From: Boletus sp. NGJ
Taxonomy: Eukaryota; Basidiomycota; Agaricomycetes; Boletales; Boletaceae
Assembly (NCBI GenBank): GCA_019096195.1
Contig: JAGTXK010000059.1
Location: 1 to 64,000, forward strand
Length of the DNA: 64,000 nt
Reading direction: 5' to 3'
Shown here: positions 2,200-62,373 of the stretch, one piece after another
Layout of the letters: the number at the start of each line of letters is the position of its first letter
How positions within the stretch are numbered: position 1 is the stretch's first letter
The notes under the pieces: model-generated
Database searches by the model: none
The model's input: only the letters and a program-made list of their open reading frames with translations
Told to the model about the DNA's origin: nothing
Program-made: the position numbers and the translations under genes

Positions 2200-3460
2200 G
2201 AACGCTGAGGGTGGGCGTATGGTAAGAATTTCGGTAGCGGGAGACAGCCGTCCTCGTCCAAAGGCTCTGAAAGCGCCACCTGTCTCAGTTTCTGTGACGG
2301 CAGTTAATTAGCGCGAGACGCACCTTCCGCTCTTCGTTTGCCCTTGTCGAGCTCCTCTGGGCACAGAGGCATCGTCCGAGTCGGAGGCGTCGTTGCCGAA
2401 AAGAGTTGGGAGGTCTCATATGGATGGTTCCATTGTGAGCCACTACTGACAACCCTGTAGCACCTTGAGGATGACGGTCTTAAAAGAGGGTCGCCACGAG
2501 GTCGGTCACGATGTTTTCATCGCGTTGATGCATGCCGTAGGCCCGCCACAGGAAGCAGGTGACTTGCTGGGCGACGTAGATCTTCGTTGGACCACAAACT
2601 AGTCCTCCCCTGATGTTCCTGTACTAAAAATACCGCGACGAAGTATTCGGGTTAGGAAATGAACAGGATAGAAGCTCGTCTGCGACCAACAAGGTCGTTG
2701 TTCTAAAGACACGCTCACGTTATCTACTGTTGCGCGGCGTAGACTCTGATGTGGGATAGAGGGCGGCGTGGGCCGAGATGGTTGAGGGGCAGAATCCAGG
2801 GATTAGATTGGTCCCCCTGTATCTAGCGTCTGATATACAAGCAAGACTACTGAATTGGTTGATAATCCGAGACCTAAGTTAGTACGCATTTGGCATTCGC
2901 TGGTTACACGCCGCAGAACGATGCCCGCAGCCCAGCAGTGGATATGGAATGATACATGATGCTTGTCCATGTTCCATGCCAAGACAGTGACCCGGGATGG
3001 CTCAGTGTTGAGGACGTTACGACAAAGCGAGGCACGAGTCTTGCCGCAACGGAAGATCTTCGGACAGGCGGGCGAGGTAGCTCCCACGCTTTTCTCTTCC
3101 GCACCTCGCCCAAGCTCAGCTCATCCACGAGCTGCATCGCACCCACCACACCACGCCCAGAGCGCCGCAACTCTTGCGGCACTTCCCCGCAGCTCCTCAA
3201 ATCCATGGACCTGGTAGCAGCATCTTCGGAGCGAGACTGCAAGGGTGCCCAGCTCACCCTCGCAGCTCTCTTGCATACCCAGAGGCTCTCCGGGTCGAAG
3301 CGCTACGCGCTTGCCCACATCTCTCGTTCTCATCTCATATAATCATATACGAGCATGTACCTAACGTAGCATATCATCTGGAGACAGTCACAATAGCAGA
3401 GCAAAGTCCAAAGATCGCGCTCATCCCCGGTTTCAACTCCGAGTCGTAGTTTACGTTCGA
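2200..3460. other. Gene-poor stretch
   Basis: No reading frame here has convincing coding character. Overlapping frames of 60-130 codons occur on both strands at 2.8-3.4 kb in GC-rich sequence, but none connects by splice sites to a recognisable protein. An acidic, Ser-rich minus frame at 1925-2179 may be a 5' exon of gene A. Nothing else is assignable. Confidence 0.4.
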
Positions 3461-9980: not shown

Positions 9981-11590
9981 GTCGTGTAACGAGAAACACT
10001 GGAAGAGACGCCTAGCTGACGGACAATCAGCAAAGACGAGTCGAGTGGGCTAAGGTTAGTCGAGGGTCGGGGCCACATTTATGTCTGCTGCGCGATGTGT
10101 CCACCCATTGCCCACTGACGAATTGTTTGGAAGAAAGGATTATGGGTGAACGTTCCATGAACATGGAACGTTACGGATCAACTTGAAGCGGTACAGGATG
10201 GAGGTATGTGGCGCATGTCAATGAATGTGAGAGCAACTTTATACAGCAGTGTTTGAAGCACCGCTGGGGTGCCAGTGGAGAGCCGCAACGCCATGATGAT
10301 CGTGGGCATGAAACTGGCGGATGGCAATCTCAGGGTTGGGAACATGGCTGTTTCGGTCTTCCAAATTCGCATAGATAGTGATATCGATAATAACCAGTAG
10401 TATGATCGCGCTACCATGATAACCGTCTGAATCCCTTGTCCTATCCAAGTTCAAATTCGCGTTGAAAATTTAACCCATGGGTCGCGGGAGATGGTCCCCC
10501 ACAAATTCACAATCAGCGCCAGCTGGTTACCTGAACGCCCCTGGCAGCCCGCCACATTCATGGCTCACTTATGGCTGTTGCATGGGCTTGCCACTGGTTG
10601 ATCACGGCGTGCCGCAGCTGCCACCTGCCAATGGCGCTTTTGACACTACGTAACGTAGAGTTCGGCGGTGTTCAAGCTGCTTCCCGTTGTTCACAACTAC
10701 CATCGTCCTCAGACCACGAGGACCGCCATCCATTTGGCGCAGGTCACTGTTACCGATACGTTTGCCCGTGGAGGTAAGTACTTGGAAGCGACTCCGCGGA
10801 ATCGCGCGCCCTGGCTATCCGTTCGAACATGGATCCGAGCCAAGGTGACGTACTTTGCAAACAATGGTTAGACCGTCGATAGGCCCCGGGAGAGACGAAG
10901 GTACGAATGAGGGCATAACTCCTCATGGGGAGGAAAAATTGCAGGAGACTCACATGCCTCTTCATCAAAGTGCCTCCTTTCCCCCTTCCCCGTTTCTCGG
11001 AAACGGGAATCATCATGACCTCTCGTTGTTGTCTGACCCGATTTGCATCACTGTCCTCTCCAACCACAGTCATTGATCCAACTTCATCGTGAATACCTTT
11101 CAAAGGAGCATGCGACGCAGGTACACTTCCCACGTTGAAGATGACTACGACCAACCCTCAACTACCTTTTCATCGTGTATTCGAATGAATGCTCGCAGAC
11201 GGGGGAGAGTATCAGGCGTTCTCGTTGTCCGAACATGACAGTACGAACGGGGGATCCGTGACGAACAAGAGAATGATCGAAGCGGGAGTCCGAACATTTG
11301 AGTCAGCGTGCGTAGACCCGCTCGGTGACCGTCGACTAACTATCCTAGTGAGCTCAATCATGGGCGGGCACATTAGGACGCACACGAATGTTGCGAGGCG
11401 ACGGTTCTCAAAGAACCGCATGGTCGATGTCCGAATATTCACGATTCAGCATGGCATCTACGTGTATTGCACTCTATGACCTTGATCAATGCGTCCCATC
11501 TCCTGTACCCGAGCAAAAGCACATCCATCTGGGGAATCTGGTCACAAGGATAGCGTCGTCCGAGTCTCGCTGGGGTGATCCACTGTGAGT
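9981..11590. other. Region without an assignable gene
   Basis: The first 250 bases share short blocks with the D1 upstream flank. A minus frame at 10,178-10,417 is hydrophobic (YYWLLSISLSMRIWK) and could be a relic of a membrane protein, but I cannot tie it to the D family. The rest, 10.45-11.59 kb, holds only short frames on both strands with no recognisable product. Confidence 0.4.
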
Positions 11591-13655
11591 TTAAGAATGT
11601 AGGTAAGAAGACACACGCACCGTTAGATGGATCCTCCTTGCTGATGGTTTAGATGCATCATTTGCTTGTTGCACCTGACAGGAAATGAGCTGTTGTGACG
11701 AGGACTATCGTCACCAGGAAAAAGACGTACAGGACTCGCTTCGTTTGGATCTGAAACACCTTTCTCGGCGCGCGAGGTGTCCTTGTGCGAATGGTTGCGA
11801 GCAGTAGGTTTTTTACGCGATTTCTTCTGTAACATGTGATGAGTGAGTGAGAACGAACTCAAGGAACGATGAACCTGTCGTTGTACAACGGGTTTCGCGA
11901 CCGCTCTCTAAAGCGATATGTTAGACGCGCCATATGCGTTTGTCTACCAGGGAAGAGCACTCACTCGGACACGTATACCTGTAGCCATTGTCGATGGTCC
12001 CTCATCGGCAGCATTTTCTCTCGCTGGTGGCTGGGAACGAGGACGAGGATCACGCGATTTTGCAGAAGGCAGATCTGGCTTATTCGAAGCCGGGTCCTTC
12101 TTGCTCTTCTTCAATAGCCACTTTTTGAATATTGAACGGCCCTGCAATGATTTTGCGGTGTCGACGTTTGCCTCTGGGCGGGAGGCCACTGGTATTGCAC
12201 CTGACGACTGTGATATTGCGTGAGACGATTCTACGGGTGGTGCCTCGTCATCGCGAGCACGAGTGGATGATGCCGTGGACAGTGACTGCGGCGGTGTGAA
12301 CACGAAAGTAAGAGAAGAATGTAGTGACCTCGAACCTCGTTATAGTCAAACTGAGGGCCGGGCGTGCTCGATTGCAACTCAACCTATGCCACTGTGAGAA
12401 TCTGGTTCGAGCCGGAGAGAACGAACTCGTACGTCGATCTCGTCCTTGAATGAACTGGATTTCGTAGGATCTTGCTGGTGTACATACACAGTAAAATGGT
12501 CAACTTTTGGTGGTAGAACGACAAACTCCTACCAGATTAGAGTCAGGTAATTCCCCGTCATGATCACCCGAGGTTGAAGGCTGTGGGTCTTGTTGTCGTT
12601 CATTGGAAACCGATGGCTAATATAGTGTGTCAGCGTGGGTGGCGATGTATGGCATATCACACATGCCAGTGCTAAAATACTTACATAGAAAGGACCATAG
12701 GTGTCGGGAAGAATGCCACTGAGATTTCGAATCACAATTTTTCCGTCATGTAGTCCAGTGGCGAGATAATTACTATCCGCAGAGATGGCAATTGACTTTA
12801 TCCTGTTACTGTCTTCAATCCCAGGGTCAATACGAATCAGTGTTGATGCATCAAGGAAGAAGATGGAACGCAATGCAAAAGTAGCAATGAATCTTCCATT
12901 GGCAGACAGAGCAATAGATGCAATGTCAATGTCACTGAGAATCTGGGATTCGGTGAGCTGGGACCCTGTGGGCACATCGAAAGACTTGATTGTGAAGTTG
13001 TTAGATGCGGCGAAGATTTTTTGACCATCGTTGGACCATGCAAGTGGTGTGACCAGGGTCTCCAAGGCTACGGCAGTGTCGATTGTGATCAGCTCGTCAC
13101 TGTTGCGGCTGTCAAAAATACGGATCGAGCCACCGTGGCGAGAAGTGGCGATCTGCTCGCCGTTTGGTGAGAACCTGACCCCACTGACCACTTCGTCATG
13201 TTTGAGTGGGCCAACAAGCCGCTCCCCGCTCGTAATACTCCAGATGCTCACTTCATCGGCAGTCCCGGTCGCAAATCTCGTCGAGTCTGCGGAGACGTCA
13301 ACTGCCTTCACCGAGTTTCCGCCCTCCACGTTGATGACCTTTTCCTGGATCTCCGCGTGCCACACACTTGCCCCCCGAGAAGTCCCACACACGATCCACT
13401 TGTGATCCTTCGACACGGATATGGCATTCAGGTCCATTCCCACTTGCCTCCCCACATTTCGACCGTCCGCAAGTCGCCATCGTCGAACCCCGTCGATACT
13501 CCCACCCAAAACATGCCTCCCATCAGGCTGGAACGCGACTGCCCACAGTGTATATGAGTTACCCATGTCGAGCACTATTGTTTGGTCTTACTGAATTGTC
13601 AGCAATGTTCAATCACTCCTCAGAACTGCTACGCACCGGTATTCGTGGACGTCAT
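11591..13655 (-). CDS. WD40 gene 1: seven-bladed beta-propeller protein with disordered basic tail
   Basis: The first exon is only 19 nt (13655-13637, MTSTNT), followed by a 50-nt intron. The large second exon (13586-12685) codes a seven-bladed propeller. Blades are visible as VAFQPDGRHVLGGSIDGVRRW, ISVSKDHKWIVCGTSRG, VDVSADSTRFATGTADEVSIW, VRFSPNGEQIATSRHGGSIRI, LAWSNDGQKIFAASNNFTIK, IALSANGRFIATFA and IAISADSNYLATGLHDGKIVI. Small 3' exons follow and encode a disordered acidic and then basic tail (FKKWLLKKSKKD, KKSRKKPTARNHSHKD) ending TVRVSSYLHS at 11591. All reading frames join through GT-AG introns, so the copy looks intact. WD40 proteins are protein-binding scaffolds, and no enzymatic domain is attached. 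Genes 2 and 3 at 58.5 and 62.4 kb have the same exon plan. Confidence 0.85.
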
Positions 13656-13659
13656 TGTC

Positions 13660-14420
13660 GGTTTCAAAGTGTTAAGGAACAAGGTGTTTCGGTTCACTCG
13701 TGGTGCGAAAATCGATGCATAAACACGTTTCCGTAAGCCGGTGTCCCTGGCGCTTATTCTCACATGAATCCCAGCCACGTCCCAGTAGCGCTCAGGCAAG
13801 CAGGTAGCATTGGCTAAACCTTCCGCCTTTTTCATGGGCAGTCTGCGATTGCTCGGCATGTCTTGATTCCGGGAGTCGGTTCAGGAGGGTGCAATCCTCA
13901 TTACGCCAGTTCGCGACATGCTGCGCACTGGTCACCCACTCCGCGTGCATCTTAGCACGTTCTCGAAGAACATTCGTACGATGTTTTAAATGCGTCAAAG
14001 GCTCCAAAAACATCATACGAATGTTCTCCATAAAGTAGGTCGAGCGCACGGCGACATCCAATACGTTTTGCTACCACCGCAGGCAGTATGAAAGTGCCGT
14101 ATTTCGCTTCACAGACAAGCTCGACAACCTTGTGCGCAAACTCTCGTACAGTACCTCGAGCAATATTAAAGGCTGGTTCGAGATGGTTAACATTCGCGTG
14201 ACATGTAACCAGTATGTTTCCGTCCCTCATCAAGTTGGATAGAGGGGCTGGACAGATACGAACACGAATACTCCCTGGGATCACCGGTCCGTCTCGCACT
14301 ACGAAACCATCCCACGTTCTATAAGTGGTGGACATGGCCTACCCGGCGGGCGACCTCTCGTTCTTCATCAAGACGCTCCTCACGGTGATCGATATGACCT
14401 CGCATGGTGTCAGGCTTGTG
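13660..14420 (-). repeat. Upstream block of WD40 gene 1, duplicated at 57.65-58.5 and 61.1-62.4 kb
   Basis: Read on the minus strand, this block matches the sequence just upstream of WD40 gene 2. Shared pieces include GGGAGTATTCGT..ATCTGTCCAGC, TGGTTACATGTC.CGC.AATGTTA.CCATCT and TTTATGGAGAACA, followed by TTCGAGAACGTGCTA. Frames of up to 127 codons occur but are not conserved between copies, so I read it as non-coding or as the relic of a lost gene. It shows that the WD40 gene was copied together with at least 0.8 kb of 5' sequence. Confidence 0.6.
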
Positions 14421-28358: not shown

Positions 28359-28370
28359 ATGCACAGAGCC

Positions 28371-28440
28371 CACCCCGTAGTTTTAATGCAGAAAATCGAT
28401 TGTAATAGCAATTCATGGTGTCATGCACAGCTTACTGTAA
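28371..28440 (+). repeat. Left terminal inverted repeat of the KDZ element
   Basis: Starts CACCCCGTAG and contains GTAATAGCA and TGTCATGCACA. The reverse complement of 40,174-40,104 starts CACCCGTACC and contains ACAATAGCA and TGTCATGCACA at nearly the same offsets (34/37 and 49/52). Four extra bases (AGCC) separate it from the target duplication. Confidence 0.7.
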
Positions 28441-29344
28441 CTAAGAGGTCTGCATTACTTTTGCACGACTTGTGCAAGACATGTGGATCCCCTGTACCTT
28501 CCTAGTGGAGCTTAAGCCTTTCCAAATGTATATTTCACAGCTGCCTGCTTTGGATCGGCCAGTTCTTATTTCTCTGCCACATGGGCTTCCCGCAGTGATG
28601 TATGGACCCAGCTTCTGTTTGTACTTTCTATTCTTGATCGCCGAAATGATGGTGACCTTTCTGACAGGTACCATCAATTGATCTTCTCGAAGCTGCCACT
28701 GGCAATCTGACATGGCTATAGCCTCCTAATTTTGCACTCTTCCGCTCCCTTTGGGTCTGCAAATTTCTTTTTTTTTCTGGTTCCTGCACCCCCTCCACCA
28801 TTCCCCATAGCTCCTTTGTGCTCCCCATTTACCTCCACTCGATGGATTGATAAGATTTCTCACCAAAGCCGGTCTAATGCATCCATGGTCAACTGTTTCT
28901 GCCTTTGTCCACTTGCTCAGGGGCTCAGGGGCTTTTTTTCAGGACTCTGTGCTCCCTCCATTCTCCTGCCATCATTCCTCCATGCCCTGGCTTACCTCTA
29001 CTCATTGGATTGAAGCAGATCTGGTATGTCTATAGTGTACTATATTAGTAATTGTCTGTTACCTTTGGATTTGGCAGCTTCTTTTGCTGCTCTTACACCT
29101 TCCCTCCACATCCCGCCATTGCTTCTTGTGTCCTGCATACTCATACCATACTTTTGTAGATGTCCTCTATGGCCCCCTTGTTGCTATTTCACTACCTGAT
29201 TATCCCTCCTGTTCATGCTCTTTCTGCTTTGTCTTGCATTCTTGTTCATTGTCCTTACTTGTATTTTAGTATCACCAGGAAATAAAATTGGACTTAGTGA
29301 AAAATCATCATTATCAGTCTGAACCCTGGGCCTTGGTACTTCAG

Positions 29345-29500
29345 TTGTGTGACAGTATGTCTTGCATTATGCATCACTCTCTTACAGTCGTATCTTGCAT
29401 TATGCATTACATCCTTACAGTACATTTGCATTACACTTCACACCATTACAGAGTGTCTTGCATTACACTTTACACCATTACAATGTCTTGCATCACTGTT
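29345..29500 (+). repeat. Short tandem repeats near the left end of the KDZ element
   Basis: About four to five imperfect units of roughly 30 nt of the type GTCTTGCATTACAC..ACACCATTACA. The flanking 28.45-29.6 kb holds no gene I can support. Such subterminal repeats could be transposase-binding sites, but this is inference. Confidence 0.5.
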
Positions 29501-29859
29501 ACTATGACAACAAAAACGACCTTTAATTCACAACTAGACATGGTACATAAGTGTCTACTAGCCATGCTGACCCTGCTTTGGAGTAGTGACTCCAATTTGA
29601 TTCGCAATGGTGTTGCGAGTGGATGGAACCACTGAACAGCCAGACCTGCAAGGAGCTGAACTGGATGTGTCAGGCATTTTTGTATCAGAGGGGGCAGCAT
29701 CGGTGACAGACACAGACTGTGTTTTAGTTCACTCAGGCTTGCTCCTCCTTTTTTTCGGTGGGGAACGCTGGGAGACAGATAAATTTATGGCTGTGGTCAG
29801 AGCAGGAGTGGGAGTCACAGCTGGAGTAGGAATTTGAACAGGAGGGGGAGCAAGAGTCA

Positions 29860-30245
29860 GAGCAGTGGTGAGAGTTGGAGCAGGTGCAGACATTCAGACA
29901 ACCTGCGTGGGCATTGGGACAGGTGCAGACATTGGAATAGACATGGGAGTTAAAATAGGTGGAGTTGGAACAGGCGTGGGGGTTGGAGCAGGTATGGGTA
30001 CAGGAGTTGGTGCGAGCACATGCACAGGAGGTGGAGTGAGAGTAGCTGTAGGAGATGGGGCAAACACTAGCACAGGATTTGGAATGAGTGTGGGCACGAA
30101 GGTTAGAGTGGGCATGCACACAGGAGATGGAGTGTGTGCTGGCATGGGAGTCACAGAAGGTATGGGTGTTGGTGTTGGTATAGGAGCAGGTGCCCATGTT
30201 GGAATGAGATTGGGAGCAGAGGGTGGAAGGGTGGGGGCAGTTGCA
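29860..30245 (-). repeat. Degenerate 12-18 nt coding repeat (Pro/Thr-Pro/Val)
   Basis: On the minus strand units such as CCTACTCCAACACC and CCCACTCCTGCT repeat dozens of times and encode (PTP/PVP)n. Because the repeat is nearly in register, all frames are open and spurious long frames appear on both strands. Inside cargo gene A. Confidence 0.7.
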
Positions 30246-31419
30246 AGATCGGGTGGGTAGGAGTGGAAGAAATCAGTGTCCCTTGTGAATGAAGTGGGTG
30301 GATCTGCCATCAGGTTGTCACTGAAGAATCCGGCGGTAGAGTCAGCCTCAATGGTCAGGGTGGACTGCAGGTACAGTCAGAAAGATACACTGAGGATTAC
30401 CCAATTTAGAATATTTACCTGTGGCATACCAAAGGCTGATACGGCCAGATTTCCTGAGGCGCTTGCATAATCAGACCAGGAAAGTGACGATCGCTGAGAA
30501 CTTCCAGAATTGCTGTAATTAGCAGGGATGTCGAAGTCAGATGGGCTATTCAATTCATTGAGGAAAGAATATCCTGAGGGAAGAGGGGGAATCAATGTTG
30601 GAGTTGCTGAAAATGGAGCGCTTGAAGATAGTGGTAGGTATATGCCATGAGGAGGGATGTCGGAAGAGGAAAGGTAATTGTCCATAGAATCGAAGGACCA
30701 CTGGGAGAACATTGAAATGTCAGAATTGACAGAGACGGCATCCTCTTCATGTCCTGGTCCATTGGAGTGCATTGATACATTGCTTTCTATGAAAAACCCA
30801 TCAATAGGCTAAGTCGTGGTTGACAGGTTGGCAGCTTCAATACTTGATTGGAGGGGTTGAGGAATGGAGTGGTCAGATGAGGTGCCCACGTCAGAAGGGC
30901 CTTGCAAAGTGGCCATGGAGTCAACTATGTAATATAAATGTTACAATGAAAGCTAGGACGGAAGAAGAGAACCTAAACTTACCATGAACATGACGAACAA
31001 ATGCGTCAAATGGCTTCATGATTTGCTCGCTGAAGGCATTATGTGCCTGCATGAAACCCATCCCTAAAGGAGTCTCGCCAACGTGTATGCTAACAGAGAT
31101 GAGATATTATAGTAGATCCAGCACTGCAGAGGCTTACCTGAGAGTCTTGATCTTGCTGCCCTTGGAGTAATCTGGACCGCCAGCAAGAATGGTGAATGCC
31201 CAACCAGTTTCGTCTTTAAAGCAATCAAAGAATTTTACAAGCATTGCAGAAAGATCTGATAGCCCTGACAATCGCACAATGTTAGCCTGTACATAAGACA
31301 ATGCATTGGTGAATGAAAGGAACTTGCAATGGACGAAAGAAAGAAACCTAAACCCAATATCTGAAGCGTTGCCAGCTGAAGCAATATGCGACAGAGAGAA
31401 GGGCAATTTCAAGGCTAAG

Positions 31420-32270
31420 CGAAACAGGGTATTCTACCGGCTACTTATATACTACCAATAGTGGCGCACGGACCGTGCTGTGCTATGACGTCGTAGGGTA
31501 CTGGGTATGACATCACAGGAATGAGGAAATGTCAGTGTCCAATGGCAAAAGGGAGAAACGGTGGAATGAGATGCGTATGGTATGTGCATGTAAGTGAAAG
31601 GTAGTCTGGAGCGTTCTAGGCGTGGCTACGTGTGATATGTCTAAAGGGGAACTAATAAATAGAAATGGAAGCGAGAGACGAAAAGAAGAAATGAAAGAGT
31701 GATGCGTAAGGCATCGCATGGGGTGATCGTTGGATCTGGTATTGAGACGGGATCGTATCAGGTGATAGATCGGGTCTTGTCTATGGGTTAATCTAGTGTG
31801 GGCTTGATTAGTACTTGTGTAGCGTACCGAGCTCTGCATCAGGTACGATCTACAGGTGACATGCGTGTAACGAGCGTATACGTGACAAAGGGTTATTGTC
31901 ATCGTACGGCGTTATATCACATGGTGTGGCTACTGAGCACTGCATCAGGTAGGTCCACAGGGGGAGGCGTAGTTTATAGGTGTGCGGGCCTTGCTTGTGG
32001 CCGTGAAGCCAGGGTTTAGCCGTAAGGCTACTTGGTGTCGTAGTGTAACGGGTACGACTAGGGTACAGCTAATGAAAGTGTACATAGGTGTGTGTGGTTG
32101 TGTGGTGTATCGTATGGGGGAGGATACGATGAGTGACTACTCTAGGTGTATGCGAGGTGAGGTTAGGATGGAGATTGGTGGTAGTGGGTGAGTGTATCGT
32201 CTATAGGTAGTGCGAGAGTGTAGGTAGAAGTGCTAATAATTAGGTGGTATAATTGGTGATCGTTTCAGTG
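31420..32270. other. About 850-bp stretch of different composition inside cargo gene A
   Basis: The stretch separates two exons of cargo A by far more than the usual 50-70 nt intron. It is rich in CG, TACG and GTACG words unlike the surrounding sequence. It holds a near-duplicate pair (TACCGAGCTCTGCATCAGGTA at 31,830 and CTACTGAGCACTGCATCAGGTA at 31,928). Its ends show only weak inverted similarity (TTATATACTACCAATAG against TTATACCACCTAATTATT). It is probably a small insertion inside the transposon; its family is not determined. Confidence 0.4.
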
Positions 32271-33331
32271 AATGTGCTTACTGTGTTTTGAGGCTTAAGT
32301 CAGAGGGACTAGCTGTCGCCATTGCAGCTGCTGACTTGGCTCTGGCTGTCACTGCAGCCACTGACTTGGCTCTGGCCTTTGCACCCTCAAGTCGCACTTT
32401 TTCTTCAAGCACCTTGCGTCATCAATGCTCATCCCTGACTGACTTGACCCAAGCTTCTTTCGTCAACCTGCGATGAATACCCATGCACTCCTTTTTCAAG
32501 CTGGTATTCAGGCCAAGCCTTGCACATTCATCCTCAAACTTTGGTTTGATTTCGTCCTTATAGTACAACTTTGAATAGACTTGTTCCTCGCTTAAGTTGT
32601 GTGTCCGCTTTGCAGAATCCTTCATGAGCTGGTTCATGGACTTGAATGGGTCCATGACAGATGCACTCCGCTTATCACGCCACGTGTTGGATTTCCACCA
32701 CATCGCATTGAGAAGTTGCTGGGACAGTGAGAATGCAATTAATGGCTGAGCGATAAGTTGTAATGCAAGACTCACCTTTTGGCGCTTTTCGATTTGGCAT
32801 GCAAGATGCTCATGTTGAATGGGTGTCAAAGAGTCAGGTGTTGTACCCAGAGGAAAATCACATTCCTTCAACTGGATCTCTGGCCATTTTTGGAACCATG
32901 CTTCGAAGAAAATGGGCTTGAATTCCATATAGTCCCGGTTAAGTAGACATTTGACATAGTGTTGCTCATAGTAGTCCTGGAGCCATTTCTTCTGCTCATT
33001 GGTGGCCCAGTCGCGTCCGCCCATCTGTAAATGTTAGAGTATTGTTTGTGATCAGAATAAATCTACAAACCTCTGATAAAGAACGAGTATAGCATGCAGA
33101 TAGAAAAGAGCTTGGGTGAAATAATGTTAAGAAACAGATGCCATGGAAAATGGTAGACTTATGCTTTTGTTGGACTTTGTTGACACAAGTGGGAGGTAGT
33201 TGGTGGCAAGGGTTTGGCAGGGCAACACATGCGCAGTCCTCATTCTTGAGGCAAAACTGTTAAAGCAACGATCTTTGCATTAATGATTCGCAAATTTGAG
33301 AACTTTGGTGGTAAGACACGAAGCATATAGT

Positions 33332-34084
33332 CTACCTCGACAGATCATCCAAATGTTGAAAGAAACCATTATTGTAGCTGATGTCAGCTTCCTTCTGATA
33401 AAGCAAACCATTGTTTTGGTGCAACGTGTCTAAACTTCCTTCCATATTAGCCATATGTATGTCCTTGAGCATGGAGATTGCCCTAGCAACGTGGCCAGTC
33501 ACTTTTCGCACAGAGGTCAGAAGAGGTCCAGCACCTCTACACTGCAAAATATTGCTCTTGATCTCTCTGGCTGACTTCTGGACTTCACCAGCTCGGAGAA
33601 TGAGTTCTTCGATGCCATTGTCAAGGATTCCTTGGCCTCCTTCACCTGGAGTCGAGAGCCAATGGTCCAAGAGGGATTTCAATGAGCCAGTGTGTGCAAT
33701 TCATCCTCGCTGAAAGAGTAGTTAGACATGAGAGCCATGATACATAAGTTACAATGTACAGCCTGGGTGTGTCTCTTTGTTGTTCTTGAGTCAAGGAGCT
33801 GGATACTAGTCGTTAGTGAAATGCAGAAGGGATGGTGAAAAGCTACTCACGATTTTGAACCAGCCTGGGCATGCCTAGCCTTGTACTTGAGCTTCATTTT
33901 CTGGGAGATCGCTGCCTGGTTGCTGCATGTCAGGTAAGTGCTCTGGGTCTAGAAGAGAAAACTAAGCTTACTGTTCATAGTATCTTTTTCGAGCAGCACA
34001 GGCAGCTGTGACATGTTCTTGGGCACTGTGGTAGAGAGTAGGGTGTCCTATATGAAGAGGTTGCAGGTTGACCATGACTGCCAT
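33332..34084 (-). pseudogene. KDZ cargo B: small basic protein, broken or mis-joined
   Basis: Exon 1 (34,084-33,972) starts MAVMVNLQPLHIGH and ends AACAARKRYYE. Exon 2 (33,922-33,851) continues NQAAISQKMKLKYKARHAQA. The Arg/Lys/Tyr-rich helix is typical of small frames that, from memory, occur beside KDZ elements in agaricomycetes. Further frames (SIQLLDSRTTKRHTQA, then 33,682-33,332 with ILDNGIEELILRAGEVQ and VARAISMLKDIHMANMEG) lie in line, but joining them needs a frame change near 33,700. The gene is either broken or has an exon I cannot place. It has no known function; its basic character suggests nucleic-acid contact. Confidence 0.45.
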
Positions 34085-34551
34085 GTGAGTAGATAGTGAC
34101 TGGTGACAACGAATTTAGCAGATCACATGACCAGACCTGAAAATCTAATCTCAATCTTGATCCACATCTATGACTGAGTTATAGGATAGTTATAGGATAT
34201 TTTGACAGGTGAGCGTTCAGATGGGCCACAATCACCATCTAGATGATAGATATCCAATGTGTAACTATGTTTTACATTCTCTCTGTAGTTTTTGTTGGTA
34301 TACGTTGTGATTGCCAACTACAATTCCTGAAAAGCATGCGATAGTGATGCAGCTGTAGTACTATGAACATTCCTACCTTACTGGGGTGCGTAGCAACCTC
34401 GTTCATCACCACCAAAATTAAGGTTCACTTTTTACATATCTCATAGTGTAGGATTTGTGTCTCAGAGGCTCAGCAAAAATGTTAAGAAAGTTCAGCTTGC
34501 ATTTCACAAGAATATAAAGACCGGGCTCTGGTACAAAGCACTTCATATAGA

Positions 34552-35281
34552 CTAGTTACTGCGCAAAATTTCAACCTTCACATCCTCAAGAGCCTTCTCA
34601 AAAAGATTGACACCGCCCTCCACAGATGATACCCTGCGCTGAATGGAGCCACTAACTTTGAGGGTAAGCGGGCCCACAACTTCCCTGGATGGAGAGGCAT
34701 TAGGCAAAGATATTGAGTGGCAGGAGTCACTCACCAGCCTGAGAAGATACCCACACGGAGTCCCTTAGTTACCATATAGAAAGGTGGGGCCACAGTAGGT
34801 GGCAGAATGTAGTAATAGTATCCATGATAAAGCCGATACCAAACCTGAGGAGCAGGGGGGGGGGTTGTGGAGGGAATAAGACTGAGGAGTGGCCCAGTGG
34901 CTCAGTGAGAAAGGCCACACTGGGGCCAGGCAAGTTAAGAGGAGGAAAGATAGGAACAACATTGGAGGGAAGTCCATTGTTGGAGGAGTTGCTCTTGCTG
35001 GTGGGGAGACTATCAACTGATGTGGGACTCGGAGGTGGAGCTACGTCTGAGTCAGCATGCACAACTTGATCAGTGGATGACTTAGATTGAACTGGCATAT
35101 TGGATATATGAATGTTGGTAAAGGTCGCGACCAGTTCAGCTGTTCATGACCAATTAGTCCAAAATTGGAATTTAGTCCAAGATACCTGCTTACCAATGTC
35201 AAGATGAGACTCCTGCAATGTTGGAGCAGTGCTCTTGGTGGGAGAGCCTGCTTCAATGGGCAAGGTTGCATTCTGGGCCAT
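34552..35281 (-). pseudogene. KDZ cargo C: RNase H1 N-terminal (RNA:DNA hybrid-binding)-like protein, homopolymer frameshift
   Basis: The ATG at 35,281 opens MAQNATLPIEAGSP. After a short intron a Ser/Pro-rich linker follows (PPPSPTSVDSLPTSKSNS). The C-terminal part is YYILPPTVAPPFYMVTKGLR, VGIFSGW, then VSGSIQRRVSSVEGGVNLFE and KALEDVKVEILRSN. This matches the pattern of the RNase H1 N-terminal hybrid-binding domain (YYVVxxGxxxGIFxxW...VSGxxxxxFxSxEEAxxxF). No RNase H catalytic domain follows. The exons join in frame except at a run of ten C (34,855-34,864 on the plus strand), where one more C would connect linker and domain. It lies divergent to the small plus-strand gene at 35,553, so they probably share a promoter. 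Confidence 0.65.
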
Positions 35282-35552
35282 GCTGAACTGGGTGGGTGGA
35301 TTCAAGACAATATTGTGCTGCTGAGTCCGTTCCCTTCATAGCTCACAATTTATCCAACTCATGCAGGTCCTCATGACCTCAACAGTGTTGGTGACAGCAA
35401 TGGAGTGCAATAGTGATGTGGTCCCTCTTCAAGACTGGGACTTCTTGAAGGGATCCATCAAATAGTTCCAGTAAGCCAAGTTTGCCTGAGGTTGTACTCA
35501 TCACCTCATATTAATAAGTTCATGGCTGCCGTGATCTAGCAAACGCCCCGTG

Positions 35553-36095
35553 ATGCCCAAGTCCAGGTCCAAAAAACCACCCCACCGTGCCAGCACTGCC
35601 AGGAATGACATTCCAAGTGTCTGGTTGCCCAATCCTGGTGATACAAGTAAAATTTAACATGTTCTTTCGTGCCATGTTGCTGATGCAGTATGTACTTATC
35701 CTGCAGTCATCTACATCACCAGTAGTCCTCCTGCTCCATCAACATCACCATCACAAGATGCACCTACTTCTGTTCCCTCACGTAAATGCAAGCAAGGTAT
35801 GGATTCTTTGCCTTGCCTCTCCAACGTGTCACATCCAAAGGGCACTCACGATGACAATGTAGCGCAGTCTTCTTGTTTGAACACTGCCGATGACAATGAA
35901 CTTACCCAATTCTTCACTGTCACTTTCAAACTTCTCACAGATAGCATCTTCCCCCTGCCTGACTCTGAACACAAAAGGAAGATTTCCAACATCCTCCGCA
36001 CCTTTACTGAAGTTTCACCCAATGTAAGTGATGTTATTGCCATCAATGAACTCATTGAGTTAACTGTACATAGTATGAGGCACCTGCCAACTTGA
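35553..36095 (+). CDS. KDZ cargo D: small hypothetical protein (about 160 aa)
   Basis: Two exons, 35,553-35,646 and 35,707-36,095, with a 60-nt GT-AG intron that keeps frame. It starts MPKSRSKKPPHRASTARNDI, a basic N-terminus, then a Ser/Pro-rich stretch (SSPPAPSTSPSQDAPTSVPS). The C-terminal half looks folded and helical: LTQFFTVTFKLLTDSIFPLP, HKRKISNILRTFTEV, IAINELIELTVHSMRHLPT. I do not recognise the family. It lies between the divergent RNase H1-like cargo and the transposase. Confidence 0.5.
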
Positions 36096-36320
36096 ACCCT
36101 CACGAATATGCAAATGCCACTCCATGAGTTGACATTGTACATTCGCTTACATTCACATGTTTAGGTTACACTCTAACCCTTCACTTGATTTCTTCAGGCT
36201 TCCTGGAGGTGACATGGAGTCTGGATATTAATTTTGCCTACTTAAAGTACACACCTGCTTGCTTGTATCTCATTTTGTGTTTTCTGCACCTCAAACATCC
36301 AACTTGTTTGTCCTCCTACT

Positions 36321-39300
36321 ATGGCTAGACCCAAATGTCGCACAAAACCCAAAGTCCATGTTTATGCTCACGATGACAGTTCCCACACAACCAAGCCAAC
36401 TTCATCACACATTCCCCATATCAACTATCATGCTCAACATGGCTCGGTTACAGTGTCTCGTCAATTCATCAAGACGACCTCCTAGGAGTCATCCAACCAT
36501 GAAGCCTTTCTCTTGGAAGTGATGTGGCTGCCAGATGATTCACACATGCTCCAATCAGCAGAGATCTTGGGTGAAACAGACCCACAGACTACCAACATGA
36601 CATCTGAGCCATTGAAGCACCAAGTATACACCAGTGTGAGTCTATCATGTCCCTTGTTACACCAACCAATCATTGAGCTTACAGGACCGACCACTTCTTG
36701 CATGGATTCCCCACCAGGCCACATTCTTAGACGAGCTCATCTGCCATGAAGGGTGGTGTGGTTCACATAGCAGTGTGTATGTCCATTGTCAGAAGCATGA
36801 CAGGGTTTATCGTTGTGAGGATTGCTTCTCTAGTGAATTGCACTGTCACGATTGCATTGTTAAATTGCATGTGTCATTACCATTGCATCGTGTCAATGTT
36901 CGTACAAGATGTCAGTCTAATAATACTGCACTAACGATTCCACAGGAATGGAACGGCACATTCTTCATGCAAATCCCCCTAAAGTCACTTGGACTTCATG
37001 TCCAGTTAGGCCACCCAGCAAGTCAATCTTGCATCAGGCCACTCCCTGCCAGTACAAATGATGACTTTGTTGTCATCAATACTAACAGTGTTTATGAAGT
37101 TGGTCTGGACTTCTGTGGATGTGAAACTGCCCAATCTTGGATGAAGCAACTACTTCAAGCATGTTTCTATCTGGCAACTGTCTGTGATCCCCGTACTGCA
37201 GCTACCTTCCAGGTTTTACAGCAATTCCATGTCCTCTCCTTCGAGTCCAAGACATCTGCGTATGAGTTTTACTCAGCTCTTGCACAACTCAGCGACAACA
37301 TGGGTACTCAGAAGCCTCGGGTGAGTGGCAAGGCTAATACAAGAGATCTGCTACATATTTATTTTTGACAGGACCGCTACGAGGAGTTCGTGCATATGAT
37401 TCGTGAGTGGCGCAACCTCAAATTGCTCAAGCATTCGGGATGTGCCCATGATCTGGCGGGACTGGGTGGAACGACAGCCAGTCAGAGCACAGTTCTCTGT
37501 CCAGCATGCCCCCAACCAGGAAAGAATATTCCCATTGATTTCATGAAGGCCCCATCAACACAAAGGTATGTAATCACACTTCTATTGGTAGATCTAGTTA
37601 TGAATGATACCCTTTTCAGCTGGATATATACATTGTTTGTAGGCATCGATGCAAACTTCCGACTAAAGTGCCACAATGTTTCCACTGATGCCACAGACCC
37701 CAGTTTGAATGGTGGTTCAGCATACTTTGTAGAGGAGAATGCATTCAAAACACATCTCTTGCTCCATGCAGCTGACCCACAGGAGGTTTTTTTTTTCTAT
37801 TTGGATCTCATGCAAGGTGTCACTCACTCCCGAATGAAGAAGAGTACATGCTCTGGGCATACTGCCGTGAATCTGGTCAATTCAAGGAAGTTGCATGGAT
37901 TTGCAACCACTGGAGTAGGGACAGTGGATTGTGCACGTCATAATATGAAGCTTCCCACTGCTGTCAGGGATTTACAGAAGGGTGAAAAGTAAGTTTCTGT
38001 TCCTCGTGACCATTGTTGCTGTGGTATCCTAACTTTAATGGCATCATAGGTACATTAATATGGACTATTTGTTCTTCTCCGCCATCAGACATTTTCCATC
38101 ACTCCCGCGTGTTGTCACATCATATGATATTGCATGTCAGTGGAGCAAACAGTTGTGGGAAAGGATGGAAAAACTTCCACCAACTCTTTGGTTTGACCGT
38201 GAAGCTGGACACGTCGACTTTGCTGTGCCAAAGTTCCATCTGCCTGCCCACAAGGAAGCTTGTCAGTTGAATTACTCATTTAACCTCATACCTTGGGTCG
38301 GACATACAGATGGCGAGGCACCAGAGTGTGGGTGGGCAAATATCAATCCGGTGGCATCGAGCACTAAGGAAATGGGTCCGGGTTCTCGAAGAGACACATT
38401 AGATGACTTTTTCGGTGATTGGAATTGGAAGAAGACCATTAGTTTGAGTAAGTCGTCTTGCATCACGCTTGATTTGGAAAGGCTAACAAGTTGTGTTGTG
38501 CAAGACGATGCATTACTCACTAAGATGAAAGAAGCAGTGATGCAAAAGCACCAGCAACATGCAGCACTACAAGGCTGCATTACCTCCCAGAAGAGTATCA
38601 CAATGGACAACTGAGGTCGAAGCTTGGGAGGCGAATCAGGAAGTATTGAACCCATATCGCTGCAAACAAGAAGGTGTGGCCATCACAATATTTCCATTCC
38701 TGTGTTCTGAGGTTCTTCATAGTGGTTACACAAGCTAAGATCCGCCTTGAACTCGCCAAAGAGGAGGCAAAACTACTGCAAGAAGGCAATGATGTATCAC
38801 TCGACTCCAAAGTGTCGCCGAGCATCTTGATCAGCACAGGAATAGATCTTGAAGACCAACAGTACATAAATATCTTCAGCGGCTCAATAGCATGTGTCGT
38901 TGACAAACCTTAGGCGACGTTTGTCTGCGGAGGTATCCTCACTCGCCTCTGATGCCATGGATGAACAGCGATTGAAAGTACGGACCCGGATAAATGTATT
39001 GCAGCGCAAGATTGAGGGTTGGGTCTCTTATCAGATACTGTACATGCCATTGGTTGCACGTCGACGTGCATCCAACATCAGCAACCTCGACACATCGCAG
39101 GAAGCCCGCCCCTATGCATTCAACCTCCTCCTTCCATCCCAGTGCCCCCTGTCATTCAGCACCCGTCGTCTGAAAGAGTATGAGTGGAAGCTACGGTACG
39201 CGCAAGGATTGGATGCACTGGAGGAAATTCGACAGAATCTCCGCCTCCGTTCTTACCTCCTGCAGTTCAAGCAAGTGAATATCCGGGGTCAGGTTGCAAA

Positions 39301-39890
39301 TACACGTGCACAGAACACGCTGAATACTGTGAAAGACAGGATTAAGTCTAGCATTAGCAAGTATCATGCTGCACGCATGGCGCTGGTTTCTTTAAGCCCT
39401 GGACTAGAGAAGACCAGGTGGGATGCAGTCATTCGTGAATTGCAAGATGACGATATTCATGGTTTGACTGTAGGGCTTGATGGGCAAACAGAGGGACGAC
39501 GCACACTTTCCTGGATCTGGCAGACACTGGGAGTGTCAGAGAATCAAGACGAAGATCTACAGGACGGTAAGTACCCCACTATAGAGTGAACACAAAGAGC
39601 TTAGTGTTCCTGTAGCATTGCGTGTGGAATGGTGCAAAGCATGAACAAGAAACCTTCGGTGGGCCGAAGAAGTCACCTTGCTCCTGGAAGAAATGCGCCA
39701 TGTCAAAGAATTTTTTGACTGGAAAGCACAGTGGTGGCGAGAACAGTCGAGTCATCATCAGGTTCAGGATGCTAGTGTGCAAGATGGCTTCGCAGCATAT
39801 TGCGGTCGACAAGCCACACTTTTCGCTGATTTAAAGGCTTCATGCGAAAAGAAGTGGAGAGGTGTGCCTAGCCTGGTTCTTTGTACATGA
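36321..39890 (+). pseudogene. KDZ transposase with CxC2-type cysteine cluster, nearly intact
   Basis: Starts MARPKCRTKPKVHVYAHDD. The N-terminal cysteine cluster contains CQKHDRVYRCEDCFSSELHC, then LHRV, a GLHVQLGH segment and GLDFCGC, the CxC2-like cluster known from KDZ transposases. The middle part has CPACPQPGKNIP, LFVGIDANFRLK and GGSAYFVEE. The catalytic RNase H-fold core shows TTGVGTVDCARHNMKLPTAV, LQKGEK, YDIACQWSKQLWERM, VPKFHLPAHKEACQ, WVGHTDGEAPECGWANINPV and SSTKEMGPGSRRDTLDDFFG. A C-terminal helical part with VEAWEANQEVLNPY and WKLRYAQGLDALEEI follows. Introns split the gene into about eight exons. In-frame stops near 36,484 and 39,647 and an uncertain junction near 37,790 suggest recent inactivation. 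Confidence 0.85.
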
Positions 39891-40103
39891 TCTGCAACTG
39901 CACATGTTTATGGAGAACATGGTCTTCACTCGCGTGGTATATCTAGATCTAGACTAGTACACTTATGGATTCACCGAACTTGATCTCTGAGTGTTACCCA
40001 AGGTGGAACTGATGATCAAGGGCAGACGCGACGCTGTCGTGCAAGGATTGCCATCCTTCATTTGGGTATTATAGCTAACAGGTCATTGCTGCACCATTTA
40101 AAA

Positions 40104-40174
40104 GCAATCAGTTGTGCATGACAAGAAAACCTGCTATTGTAGTCTCTACTGCACGATTTCTACAGGTACGGGTG
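40104..40174 (-). repeat. Right terminal inverted repeat of the KDZ element
   Basis: See the left repeat for the alignment. It ends ...TACGGGTG at 40,174 and is followed directly by ATGCACAA, the right target-site copy. Confidence 0.7.
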
Positions 40175-40286
40175 ATGCACAAGTAAAATAAAGATACGAG
40201 TCACTGTTCAAAGTACCGCCGTTCTCCACCATTCGTCAATGCCTCAGCGCGAGCGTTCTTCCCCCGTTCCTACCAAACTTCCCCCT

Positions 40287-57649: not shown

Positions 57650-58537
57650 ATCCAGAATCATCCCTGTTGAGCATATCGACCACCGTGAAGAACGTCCTGA
57701 TTGAGAGCGCCAGGCCATCCGGGCCATTGTAGGTCGCGTCCGTCGCTTGCAGGAGGCAGACAGGATTTGTGGTCCGAGGTGGATCAGCGATCACAGGTAG
57801 TATTTGTATCTGTCCAGCTCGTCAATGTCAATGGGCCAGCCAACTTCACGAATGGAAGCATACTGGTTACGTGTTCCGTCAATGACCATTATCTCGATGC
57901 GAGGCGGATCTGTGATCGCCGGGAGTATTCGTATCTGTCCAGCTCGTCAGTATCGACAGTCCATCCGACTTGCTCAGGGACGGAAAAGTGCTGGTTACAT
58001 GTCGCGCAAATGTTAGCCATCTAGACATCGATCGATGTAGTGCGACGAGTTCGTGGACAGGGTTGTTGAGCTTGCCTGTTCATCGAAATAGCAGAGTATG
58101 GTGCCTTTTATGGTAGTAAAACGCATTAGATATGGTATTGCCATGCTCTCGATCACCCCAACGGACCTGCCATTTTATGGAGAACACTTGTCCGGAGTTT
58201 GAGCGGGCCCTCTTCGAGAACGTGCTAGGATGCGTAGTTTGTGTGGGGCATGTCGTGAACTGGTGTAATGCGGACTGCATATCGAATCCCGGAACCAAGA
58301 CATGACGAACAATCGTAGACTGACCTTTGAGGTGACAGAAGGTTTGGTCAATATTGCCTGCTTGGCTGGCCGTCGCAACGAGGTCATCTAGCTGGGATCC
58401 GAGGAAAAGTAAGCGCCAAAGACACGCGTGAACAGACCAAATTGAGAATAAGGAAATATCAATCTTCGCACCACGAGCAAACTGAAACACGTTGTTCCTT
58501 GACACCTTTAACCGACGACACTGTACCATTGGTGAAG
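57650..58537 (+). repeat. Upstream block of WD40 gene 2, shared with genes 1 and 3
   Basis: Matches 14.42-13.66 kb (inverted) and parts of 61.1-62.37 kb. Inside it a unit is repeated in tandem: CTGTCCAGCTCGTCA.TATCGAC/TGTCAATG ... CTGGTTACGTG/ATGTC at about 57,812 and 57,934. A 235-codon minus frame covers 58,080-58,787, but its frame is not kept in the other copies. Confidence 0.55.
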
Positions 58538-60696
58538 ATGACGTCCACAAAGACTGGTGCGTAACAGTTCCGAGCCTGAGGAGCGATTGAACACTGCTGA
58601 CGATTGAGTAAGACCACACAATCGTGTTCGACACCGGTCGCTCTGGTGTGGTGGATGCAGTCGCATTCCAGCCTGATGGGATGCATGTTTTAGGCGGGAC
58701 TTGGGATGGGATTCGACAATGGCGACTTGCGGACGGCAATTTCGGTAAAGAGACGGAGAAGCAAATGGGGATGAACTTGAATGCCATTTCTGTGTCAAGG
58801 GATCACAAATGGATAGTATGCGGGACTATGTGGGGGACAAGCGTGTGGGACGCAGAGATGCATGAAAAGGCCATCGAGGTGGACGGCACAAAGACGGTGT
58901 CTGCAGTTGACGTCTCCCCAGACTCGACTAGGTTTGCCACCGGGGCCGGAAGGGATGCAAGCATCTGGAGCATTACGAGTGGGGAGCGACTCGTTGGGCC
59001 GCTCGAACACGACGAAGATATCACTGGAATCAGGTTCTCGCCATCAGGCGAACACATCGCCACATCAGGTCGAGGTGGCTCCGTGCGGATTTTTCGCGGT
59101 CGCAGTGGTGACCAGCTCATTGAGATCAACACCATCACAAGCTCAGATTGGCCAATCACTCCGCTCGCGTGGTCCAACGGCGGTCAACAAATTTTTACCG
59201 CATCAGACGACAAGAAAATCAAGTCTTTCAATGCGTCCACGGGGTCCCAGTTCGCCGAATCGCAGATTCTCGGTGACGACAATGTCGGATCTATTGCTCT
59301 AGCCACCAACGGAAGATTCATCGCTACCTATGTATCACGTTCCATCTTCTTCCTTGACACATCAACACTCGCTCGCATTGGCCCTGGAATCGAGGACAGT
59401 GACAAGATACACTCAATTGCCATCTCTGCAGATAGTAACTATGTCGTCACTGGTCGATATGACGGAAAAATCAACATTCGAAATCTCAACAGCATTCTTC
59501 CATCAGACTTATGTGGCCCTTTCGATGTAAGTATTTGTGCACTCCAGTGCTAGCACATCCAATAAGCACTCGTCTTCCAAGCTGACATGCTACATTAGCT
59601 GTCTATTCGCAGGAATGGACAGCAAGACGAACAGCCTTCGACCTCGGGTGGTCAGGACAAGGGATTACCTGACTCTCCCCAGTCTCTGGTAGGATTTCAT
59701 CATTCTGCTACCAGAAGATTTGTACTGACTCCTTCCTTATGTATGTACACCAGCAAGATCCCACGAAATCCAATCCACTCGAGGGCGAGACCCGGAGTGC
59801 AGACAGCGAGGGGGAAACCCAGAACGAGAACGGCGACAGCGATCTGCTCGAGGTATCCGTTTTTTGTTCTTTTCCCAATCAAAGCAAGTTCTCACGATTG
59901 CACAGGTCAACGTGCCGTCCAGTACGCCCGGCCCTCAGTTTGACTACGAAGAGGTTCGAGGTCACTACATTCTTCTCTTACTTTCGTTTTGACACCGCTA
60001 CAGTCACTGTCCCCGGCATCATCCACTCATCCTCACGATGACGAGCCACCACCCATCGAGCCGTCTCACGCAATATCACAGTCGGGTGCAGTACCAGTGA
60101 CATCCCATCTAGAGGTAAATGTCGACACCGCCGAGTCATCGCAGGGTCGTTCGATATTTAAAAGGTGGCTGCGGAGAAAGAATAACAAGGACACAGCTTT
60201 GCATAAGCCAGATTGGCCTTCTGCACAATCGCGTGATCCTCGACTTCGTCACCAGTCACCAGCGAGAGAAAACACTACCGATGAGGGACCTTCGACAATG
60301 GCTGCAGGTCAACGTGTGCGAGTGAGTGATCTTCCCTGATAGATAAATGAATTAGCACGTCTAATATATCGTCTTAGCGAGCGGTTGCAAAACCCGTTGT
60401 ACAACGACAGGTTTGTTGTTTCTCGAGTTTGTTCTCATTCACTCATCACACGTTACAGAAGAAATCGCGTAAAAAACCTACTGCTCATAACCGTTCGCAC
60501 AAAGACACTTCGCGCGGCGGGCAAGGTGCTTCAGATCCAAACGAAGCGGGCCCTGTATGTCGTTTTCTTGTGAAGATAGTCCCCCTCACGACAGCTCATT
60601 TCCTGTCAGGCGCAGCAAGGAAACAATCCATCTCAACCATCAGCCGGGAGGGTCCATGTAACTGTGCGCGTATCTTCATTTTACTTACATTGTTAG
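58538..60696 (+). CDS. WD40 gene 2: seven-bladed beta-propeller protein with disordered basic tail
   Basis: Same plan as gene 1. Exon 1 is 19 nt (58,538-58,556, MTSTKT), exon 2 is 58,613-59,526, followed by small exons 59,599-59,688, 59,754-59,852 and others. Blades: VAFQPDGMHVLGGTWDGIRQ, ISVSRDHKWIVCGTMWGTSV, VDVSPDSTRFATGAGRDASI, IRFSPSGEHIATSGRGGSVR, LAWSNGGQQIFTASDDKKIK, IALATNGRFIATYVSRSIFF, IAISADSNYVVTGRYDGKIN. The tail contains QGRSIFKRWLRRKNNKD, KKSRKKPTAHNRSHKD and ends HVTVRVSSFYLHC at 60,696. Frames are kept over the introns I could place, so it looks intact. No effector domain is fused, so a scaffold role is the safe reading. Confidence 0.85.
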
Positions 60697-62373
60697 ACTC
60701 ACATTGGATCACGTCAGCGAGAATCAGACGACGCTATCCTTATGGTCAGATTCCCCAGATGGATGTGTTTTTGCTCGGGTACAGGAGATGGGACGCATTA
60801 ATCGGATCAAGTGGTTCATATTACATGTACATGTAGACTACGGGATTACGAGTATATGGACATTAATCGATTATGCGGTTATTTCAGTTCGTCTCGTTCC
60901 GCAGCTTTACATTACATTGGATAAACGTCACTACGCGAGGTGGATGAGTGATCGTAGCCGTATCTGTGCAGTACATAGGTATCGTCCTATAAAAGCCATA
61001 GAATCGCTAGGAATTGCTCTGTGGTGCTATCCTGAGGTGTTGGGAGCCGATCCGAGCGACGCGATGTGTGTCAGGTGATCGAGTACATGACAATGTCCGA
61101 TTTGCTCTACCGCCATTCAAAGCAGTGTGGAGCGCCATGATGATCGCGGGAAAGGTCAACAGCCATGCTCGTGACTGTCGCAGTACTTCGACCGACGTTG
61201 AACTAGCTCGAGACAATGGACGATCACAGGGACATGTAACCACCATGCTTCCATGCTTCGTGAAGTTGGCGAGCCCACGGGACTGTCTGCCTATCGTGAA
61301 CTAGGAAACGTGTCGGAAGGCATGACTAGAATCAATGGACTGTATGAGCACAACCATTGTAGGAAGCGGGGATCGCCCAGCCTGGCCATGCATGTGGATG
61401 TGACGTGGTCTGAGCGGGTGCGCTCCATTTTTACGGAAACAAAATTTTCCGGACTATGAACACACGCATATCTGGGACGCACACGTATTTGTGCGCGGTA
61501 TGCTGCAAGTTGGCCTCACGTGGATGGTACACTGGTCGTGAACCAAGTCTCGCAGTCAGGACCTCGGAAAAGACGGAAGGTTGGCCACCATTGCCTGCTT
61601 GCGCGGCCGTCGCAACGAGGTCATCTAGCTGGGATGCGGGTAAGAATAAGCGCCAAAGACGCGGGCTTACGCACGAACTGACCAAATTGAGAATAAGGAA
61701 ACATGTTTATGAATCAATTTTCGCACCACGAGGAAACCGAAACACCTTGTTCCTTGATGCTTTGAAACCGACGACTATGTGAAGATGACTACCGGTGTGT
61801 AACAGTTCTAAGGAGTGATTGAGCATTACTGACATCCAATCAAATCGTCAGACAACATGTATGAAAGGCACTACTGGCGTCAACAAGTCTGTATGTGAAC
61901 AGAACCACGTACAAAGTCACCCGGCGATATATGGGAATGTGACGTGGTCTGAGTGGGTTGTGTCCCATCTTATGGAAAAAAATCGCCTGAAGTACGCGAC
62001 CTTTTCGAGAATGTGCTGGGATACACACATATTTTGTGGGTGATTTGATATGTCGCGAGTTGGTCTCATGTGGACGGTACTCTTATCGTGAACCGAGTGC
62101 AGCCAAGACATGACAACTTGACAGTCACAGAATGCCCTTGGAAGAGACGGAAGGTTCGGCCAATATTGGCTACTTATCTAGCCGTCGCAACGTTATCTAA
62201 CTGAGATCCGAGTAAGAATAAACGCCAAAGACACCACGCTCCCGTGTGATCTTACCATAGTGGGAATAAAAGAAACATGTTGATGAATCCATTTTCGCAC
62301 TAAGAGTGAACCGAAACACCTTGTTCCTTGACACTTTGAAACCGACGACGACTTGAACGCATCATTGGGGACC
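60697..62373 (+). repeat. Partly tandem copies of the WD40 upstream block
   Basis: Two overlapping partial copies of the block that precedes gene 2. Copy one (about 61,380-61,860) has GTGACGTGGTCTGAGCGGGT, GTCGCAACGAGGTCATCTAGC and AAGAATAAGCGCCAAAGAC. Copy two (about 61,930-62,450) has GTGACGTGGTCTGAGTGGGT, GTCGCAACG.TATCTAACTGAG and AAGAATAAACGCCAAAGAC. The first half (60.7-61.1 kb) has no recognisable content. No gene is supported. Confidence 0.6.

Follow-up and report, generated by a model that had tools for sequence, protein, structure and literature searches.

A decayed Kyakuja-like KDZ transposon of Boletus sp. NGJ with a putative accessory gene and a probable RNase H1 N-terminal domain as cargo

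Kyakuja transposons, multi-gene elements of Agaricomycotina with a KDZ transposase, are described as having 7-bp target site duplications, CA..TG ends, no inverted repeats and a TET gene as cargo (Kojima 2025, PMC12730594); its main text contains neither 'RNase H' nor 'ribonuclease' nor 'accessory'. Further accounts, which like the first are drawn on in excerpt, report intact KDZ elements preceded by CxC2 in Pleurotus, with 36 KDZ transposons in the P. ostreatus strain of helpo1.3 (PMC7641404), and the elements KDZ1-3 of Cryptococcus neoformans (PMC12810828). The long copy of helpo1.3, a P. ostreatus Helitron, holds an extra block of 10.7 kb with the genes capD (UL36-like), capE (PF01693) and capF (RNase-H-fold, putative transposase) and with internal complementary repeats (Castanera 2014, PMC4289320). 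Here we describe a KDZ element in a stretch of 64,000 nucleotides from Boletus sp. NGJ (assembly GCA_019096195.1, contig JAGTXK010000059.1, positions 1 to 64,000; hereafter the window). It is probably a decayed, large cut-and-paste transposon of Kyakuja-like type, methylated by the host and now inert, which carries an accessory gene (G1) and a captured, catalytically dead cargo gene (RNH) in addition to two small genes (G2 and HEL).

The element shares with Kyakuja (PMC12730594, as excerpted) the 7-bp duplications, the KDZ transposase, a right end in ...TG-3' (here ...GGGTG), a multi-gene content and an Agaricomycotina host, but differs from it in its left end (GAGCCC, thus GAG and not CA), in what may be weak terminal inverted repeats, in its cargo of G1 and RNH and in the TET/JBP gene, for which no PF12851 match was found on the contig that carries the element (C139), so that it does not count among the TET-bearing transposons. 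Because the left end is not CA, we term the element Kyakuja-like and do not place it in Kyakuja. KDZ1-3 of C. neoformans are alike in size (9-11 kb) and in having a KDZ transposase with a cysteine cluster, but the excerpted account gives them CxC1, duplications of 4-8 bp and inverted repeats of 139-241 bp (PMC12810828). The helpo1.3 block resembles the element in length (10.7 kb; the element has 10,850 bp without its nested repeat), in its inverted repeats and in its gene list (capD being probably proline-rich), but the available text describes it as a set of Helitron-captured genes with no copies outside Helitrons (PMC4289320). That absence of outside copies, set against the 36 KDZ transposons of the strain (PMC7641404), argues against capF being an ordinary KDZ transposase. 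Compared by size and gene list only, the block may, with some uncertainty, be a similar transposon inside a Helitron, and the likeness suggests that the published gene 'capture' in Pleurotus be re-examined.

The preliminary description of this DNA had proposed an undescribed multi-gene system, which is too strong a term, since KDZ elements with several genes are already on record, as is, from 2014, a PF01693 gene within a DNA transposon of a fungus. Our literature search returned no account of a KDZ element that contains an RNase H1 N-domain gene; the founding paper (Iyer et al. 2014), which may describe some of these genes, lay outside that search. With RNH, a nuclease-free hybrid-binding-like module, KDZ elements otherwise noted for TET/JBP would gain a second cargo type. 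G1 offers a concrete accessory gene, conserved in its layout and open to testing together with the transposase.

A single KDZ transposon makes up the region, and four cargo genes lie between its ends (Table 1). All four cargo frames that had been noticed earlier do lie in it, although the extent first given, 29729-36095, fell short at both ends. Exactly at the left end, homology to a sister copy (contig C27) sets in, and exactly at the right end, homology to a second sister copy (contig C25) stops; neither sister copy has a transposase nearby. A perfect 7-bp duplication (ATGCACA) flanks both homology-defined ends; the eighth base is mismatched on the left (T/G), so the 8-bp duplication of Zisupton is not found here. 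Imperfect inverted repeats of about 80 bp begin 8 bp inward at both ends and align with a score of 39, which was equalled by 6 of 1981 random pairs of window stretches. The element measures 11,809 bp, or 10,850 bp without a nested long terminal repeat (LTR) and one copy of the LTR's duplication. Its transposase gives Pfam matches that are all above cut-off, to CxC2 (PF18803, E 3.2e-39, 133.8 bits) and KDZ (PF18758, E 3.8e-17 and 2e-42), and these span about 36.98-38.43 kb on the + strand. Chance open frames are ruled out as an explanation, the element being fixed by its ends and by its other copies. To the left of the transposase gene lie all four cargo genes, G1(-), G2(-), RNH(-) and HEL(+), and the last two diverge, as had been proposed for a 270-bp spacer, from likely ATGs 271 bp apart.

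The accessory protein that had been recognized by its EEQVYSKLYY motif corresponds to a real open reading frame (ORF; 32425-33033, - strand), but this is a single exon of the larger gene G1, which the LTR splits. It supplies the helical N-terminal part of G1, followed by a conserved C-terminal part (31137-31286 and 30984-31097) and by an acidic/aromatic and proline-rich tail that reaches about 29.7 kb. Homologues of the cargo were counted within the source genome, where 88 PF18758 matches, together with an additional piece that tblastn located on C68, were grouped as 56 KDZ loci. G1 relatives occur at eight places (two of them, on C109, may be parts of a single gene), and at four of the eight, namely the window, C41, C68 and C109, G1 is no more than 5 kb from a KDZ locus. 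Sequence no more than 5 kb from such a locus makes up 1.8% of the genome, and under random placement the count of four in eight has P = 7e-6, a value that serves as a guide only because the copies are related. On C73, G1 is 9.7 kb from the transposase start, and at all five loci G1 and the transposase are divergent. At C41, C68, C109 and C73 the position immediately 5' of the transposase gene is taken by a paralogue, G1b (profile match to G1, probability 60%, E 9e-5), which at C11 adjoins an RNH relative. From this kept place we infer that G1 is a standing accessory of a KDZ lineage; to judge by its sequence it plausibly regulates transposase expression while bound to DNA, or acts as a partner of the transposase.

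RNH is very likely homologous to the N-terminal (hybrid-binding) domain of RNase H1, because its family profile matches yeast 1qhk and because it has the position of its predicted intron in common with the host RNase H1 gene. The profile, built from three sequences (window, C7 and C11), returned the yeast RNase HI N-terminal domain 1qhk as its first PDB match (E 0.13), and PF01693 is the sole Pfam match both of the spliced window domain (15.7 bits, E 0.019) and of the C7 relative (E 0.12). A predicted intron of 50 nt (34685-34734) splits the invariant tryptophan codon between TG and G, and the predicted introns of the C7 relative and of the host RNase H1 gene, located at C45, are placed alike. 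The C45 gene gives a PF01693 match and, as read from its ORFs, includes a catalytic half. The kept intron points to a DNA-level capture in which the opening portion of a cellular RNase H1 gene was taken up. RNH shares the core of the N-terminal domain with cellular RNase H1 (the C45 gene and yeast 1qhk), and the Trp-codon intron with the C45 gene, but a stop follows directly behind the domain and no catalytic RNase H domain is present in the frame, which bears out the earlier proposal of such a protein without its catalytic half. The reading frame changes at, or close to, a run of C (C10, 34855-34864). Among the residues that bind the hybrid in the human domain, a Tyr and a Trp are retained in the window and two basic residues are Arg in place of Lys. 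RNH would be an optional cargo captured at the DNA level, encoding a catalytically dead protein that binds nucleic acid. Its relatives are found at four places (window, C7, C11 and C95), two of them within 5 kb of a KDZ match: the window copy inside the element, and the C11 copy at 4.5 kb, adjoining the G1b gene that elsewhere stands beside CxC2-KDZ transposases.

Several observations weigh against this reading, some of them touching the RNH domain and others the cargo as a whole. The 15.7 bits of RNH lie under the Pfam cut-off of 21 for PF01693, so that the profile search proposed in the preliminary description returned the expected family, as the only one, at a score below threshold. The window RNH domain alone retrieved no RNase H1 in PDB, and a PF01693 search of the same genome missed RNH, listing two other genes (C45 and C81). 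The introns were predicted from GT..AG alone and chosen with the domain already known. In the profile alignment the window reads QRR where yeast has YKK, the aromatic residue before the two basic ones being replaced by Gln, and hybrid binding by RNH may therefore be lost. For the cargo as a whole, the upstream flanks (3.8-4.0 kb) of six other KDZ loci held a relative of a cargo gene in 0/6 cases at E < 0.01; the C7 contig has no KDZ match, and the C95 copy of RNH is about 20 kb from the nearest one. For none of the cargo frames did the ratio of nonsynonymous to synonymous substitution rates (dN/dS) indicate selection, wrong frames scoring equally low, although the ratio is uninformative here because the divergence consists almost entirely of transitions.

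One alternative is that the cargo genes are passengers, brought in by separate insertions or captures and hitch-hiking without benefit to the transposon. We regard this as the most serious competitor, if still the less probable account. G2 and HEL were found only in the sister copies, the sole other match of G2 being in the transposase-less C27 copy (87%) and that of HEL in the C25 copy (72%), besides two weak matches (E 0.05 and 0.12); RNH is near KDZ at two of four places, and no selection signal was found. The suggestion that the cargo families accompany KDZ transposases elsewhere consequently holds, within this genome, for G1 and in part for RNH, but gains no support for G2 or HEL. Passengers would not, however, be expected to keep their place, and the divergent position of G1 beside the transposase is retained in copies whose proteins are only 24-39% identical.

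CpG decay bears on a second alternative. The observed/expected (o/e) ratio of CpG is 0.39 inside the element (LTR excluded) against 1.04 in the rest of the window, and the change falls at both element ends. Comparison of the window with C27 revealed 229 transitions and 9 transversions over 4489 sites, with 160 of the 229 transitions in CpG context; CpG transitions are a known trace of cytosine methylation and subsequent deamination. CpG o/e is 0.04-0.35 at the other G1 loci, 0.25 at the C7 and C11 loci and 0.17-0.50 in the spans of TET-KDZ elements (six of 15 examined: C33, C133, C56, C5, C37 and C3), and two host loci lack CpG depletion (0.69-1.26 and 0.83-1.0 per kb). The escape from silencing that had been suggested for the element is not supported, given this strong depletion and the nearly all-transition divergence in the element and the related copies examined. 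Neither cargo type kept the examined copies free of CpG decay, which says nothing of their active period.

It is accordingly unlikely that the cargo is an anti-silencing kit replacing the TET/JBP gene of another KDZ lineage. TET/JBP elements of this genome resemble the window element in having a KDZ transposase, in being CpG-depleted and in the distance, some 2.5-4.4 kb, that separates a cargo gene and the KDZ domain, but none of them has G1 within 5 kb. Of the 23 TET/JBP matches, 15 are no farther than 5 kb from a KDZ locus; at this distance TET is found at 15 of the 56 loci, G1 at four and both at none. Such a separation speaks for the kit; given 4 and 15 of 56, however, a zero overlap is expected by chance about one time in three and proves little, and CpG is strongly depleted both in the G1 copies (o/e 0.04-0.39) and in the six TET copies examined (0.17-0.50).

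Chance or convergent similarity of RNH within decayed sequence, with no captured RNase H1 domain at all, would account for the sub-threshold score, the negative PDB search with the domain alone and the failed search of the genome, but is improbable, as the family is the one foreseen in the preliminary description, PF01693 is the only Pfam match of two separate sequences, 1qhk heads the profile search of PDB, and the predicted intron agrees with that of the host RNase H1 gene both in the Trp codon that it splits and in its phase. Two other observations concern relatives of this domain. The C7 and C11 loci have a second gene in common (tblastx E 2e-7; 1190-1348(+) and 2545-2703(-), L029/L030), and at C81:1316003 an RNase H1 N-domain exon precedes ORFs that resemble a PIF1-type helicase, its intron position being unlike that of RNase H1.

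For the Kyakuja-like transposon with captured cargo, a course of events can be proposed in which the transposase would have cut at the terminal repeats and left the 7-bp duplications. The likeliest use of RNH, which is a guess, would be the binding of RNA:DNA hybrid or double-stranded RNA at the transcripts or promoters of the element itself. Host methylation of the element would have led to the CpG decay that killed it, the solo LTR being inserted later into what is now an inert copy. A far more specific proposal, to which we give little credence, is that in a TET-free KDZ lineage of fungi the captured, nuclease-dead RNase H1 N-domain covers RNA:DNA hybrids at the element's bidirectional promoter (the 271-bp spacer), protecting this promoter or the element's transcripts against RNase H or against RNA-directed silencing. 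G1 would be the regulator, and the TET lineage would have met the same problem by demethylation.

The nested repeat that interrupts G1 is absent from the C27 copy. Its TG...CA ends and 5-bp duplications identify it as a solo LTR; the same ends, with 5-bp duplications of their own, are seen at four of five other examined copies of the repeat, the fifth being ambiguous, and they exclude a DNA transposon with a 7-bp duplication. The CpG o/e of the LTR is 1.02, which indicates that its insertion is younger than the decay of the element. Solo LTRs of 0.95-0.99 kb with 5-bp duplications are present in high copy number, with at least tens of copies among the matches listed.

Table 1. Positions of the KDZ element and its parts in the window
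Feature	Position	Strand	Basis or remark
Whole KDZ element	28366-40174	+	Ends from sister copies, 7-bp duplication, edges of CpG depletion
Left 7-bp target site duplication, ATGCACA	28359-28365	.	Sequence; adjoins start of C27 homology
Right 7-bp target site duplication, ATGCACA	40175-40181	.	Sequence
Left imperfect terminal inverted repeat	28374-28454	.	Local alignment; pairs with 40087-40166; also in repeat search
Right imperfect terminal inverted repeat	40087-40166	.	Local alignment with left repeat
KDZ transposase gene	36321-39890 (end approximate)	+	Pfam domains, start codon
CxC2 cluster	about 36979-37305	+	Within transposase gene
KDZ domain	about 37627-38425	+	Within transposase gene
G1, multi-exon accessory gene	29733-33033	-	ATG about 33024; relatives at 8 places; exon structure inferred
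G2, small gene	33335-34090	-	ORF 33332-33700 and exons; basic N-part, helical C-part
RNH gene	34555-35281	-	RNase H1 N-terminal-like domain 34555-34838, then stop
Spacer	35282-35552	.	271 bp separating likely ATGs of divergent RNH and HEL
HEL, small gene, helical product	35553-36095	+	ORF; relative in C25 sister copy
Nested solo LTR, 954 bp, TG...CA	31314-32267	.	Absent from C27 copy; interrupts G1
5-bp target duplication of nested LTR, GTGAA	31309-31313 (left), 32268-32272 (right)	.	Sequence

No known Pfam family was found for G1, G2, G1b or HEL; a PDB search with G1 gave no relative (best E 0.32), and viral contigs yielded none either. A helical protein of the C41 type has one Pfam match, to PXA, which is sub-threshold (E 0.078); that this protein, HEL and G2 form a single family received no support from profile comparison.

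On either side of the element is a stretch (25.8-27.7 kb and 40.2-41.4 kb) that encodes a multi-pass-membrane-like protein; the two proteins resemble each other and are oppositely oriented. The sequence immediately to the right of the element is found again at four other places. Elsewhere in the window, 11407-13735 and 58358-63998 are 65-71% alike to repeats of C27 and probably represent another transposon family.

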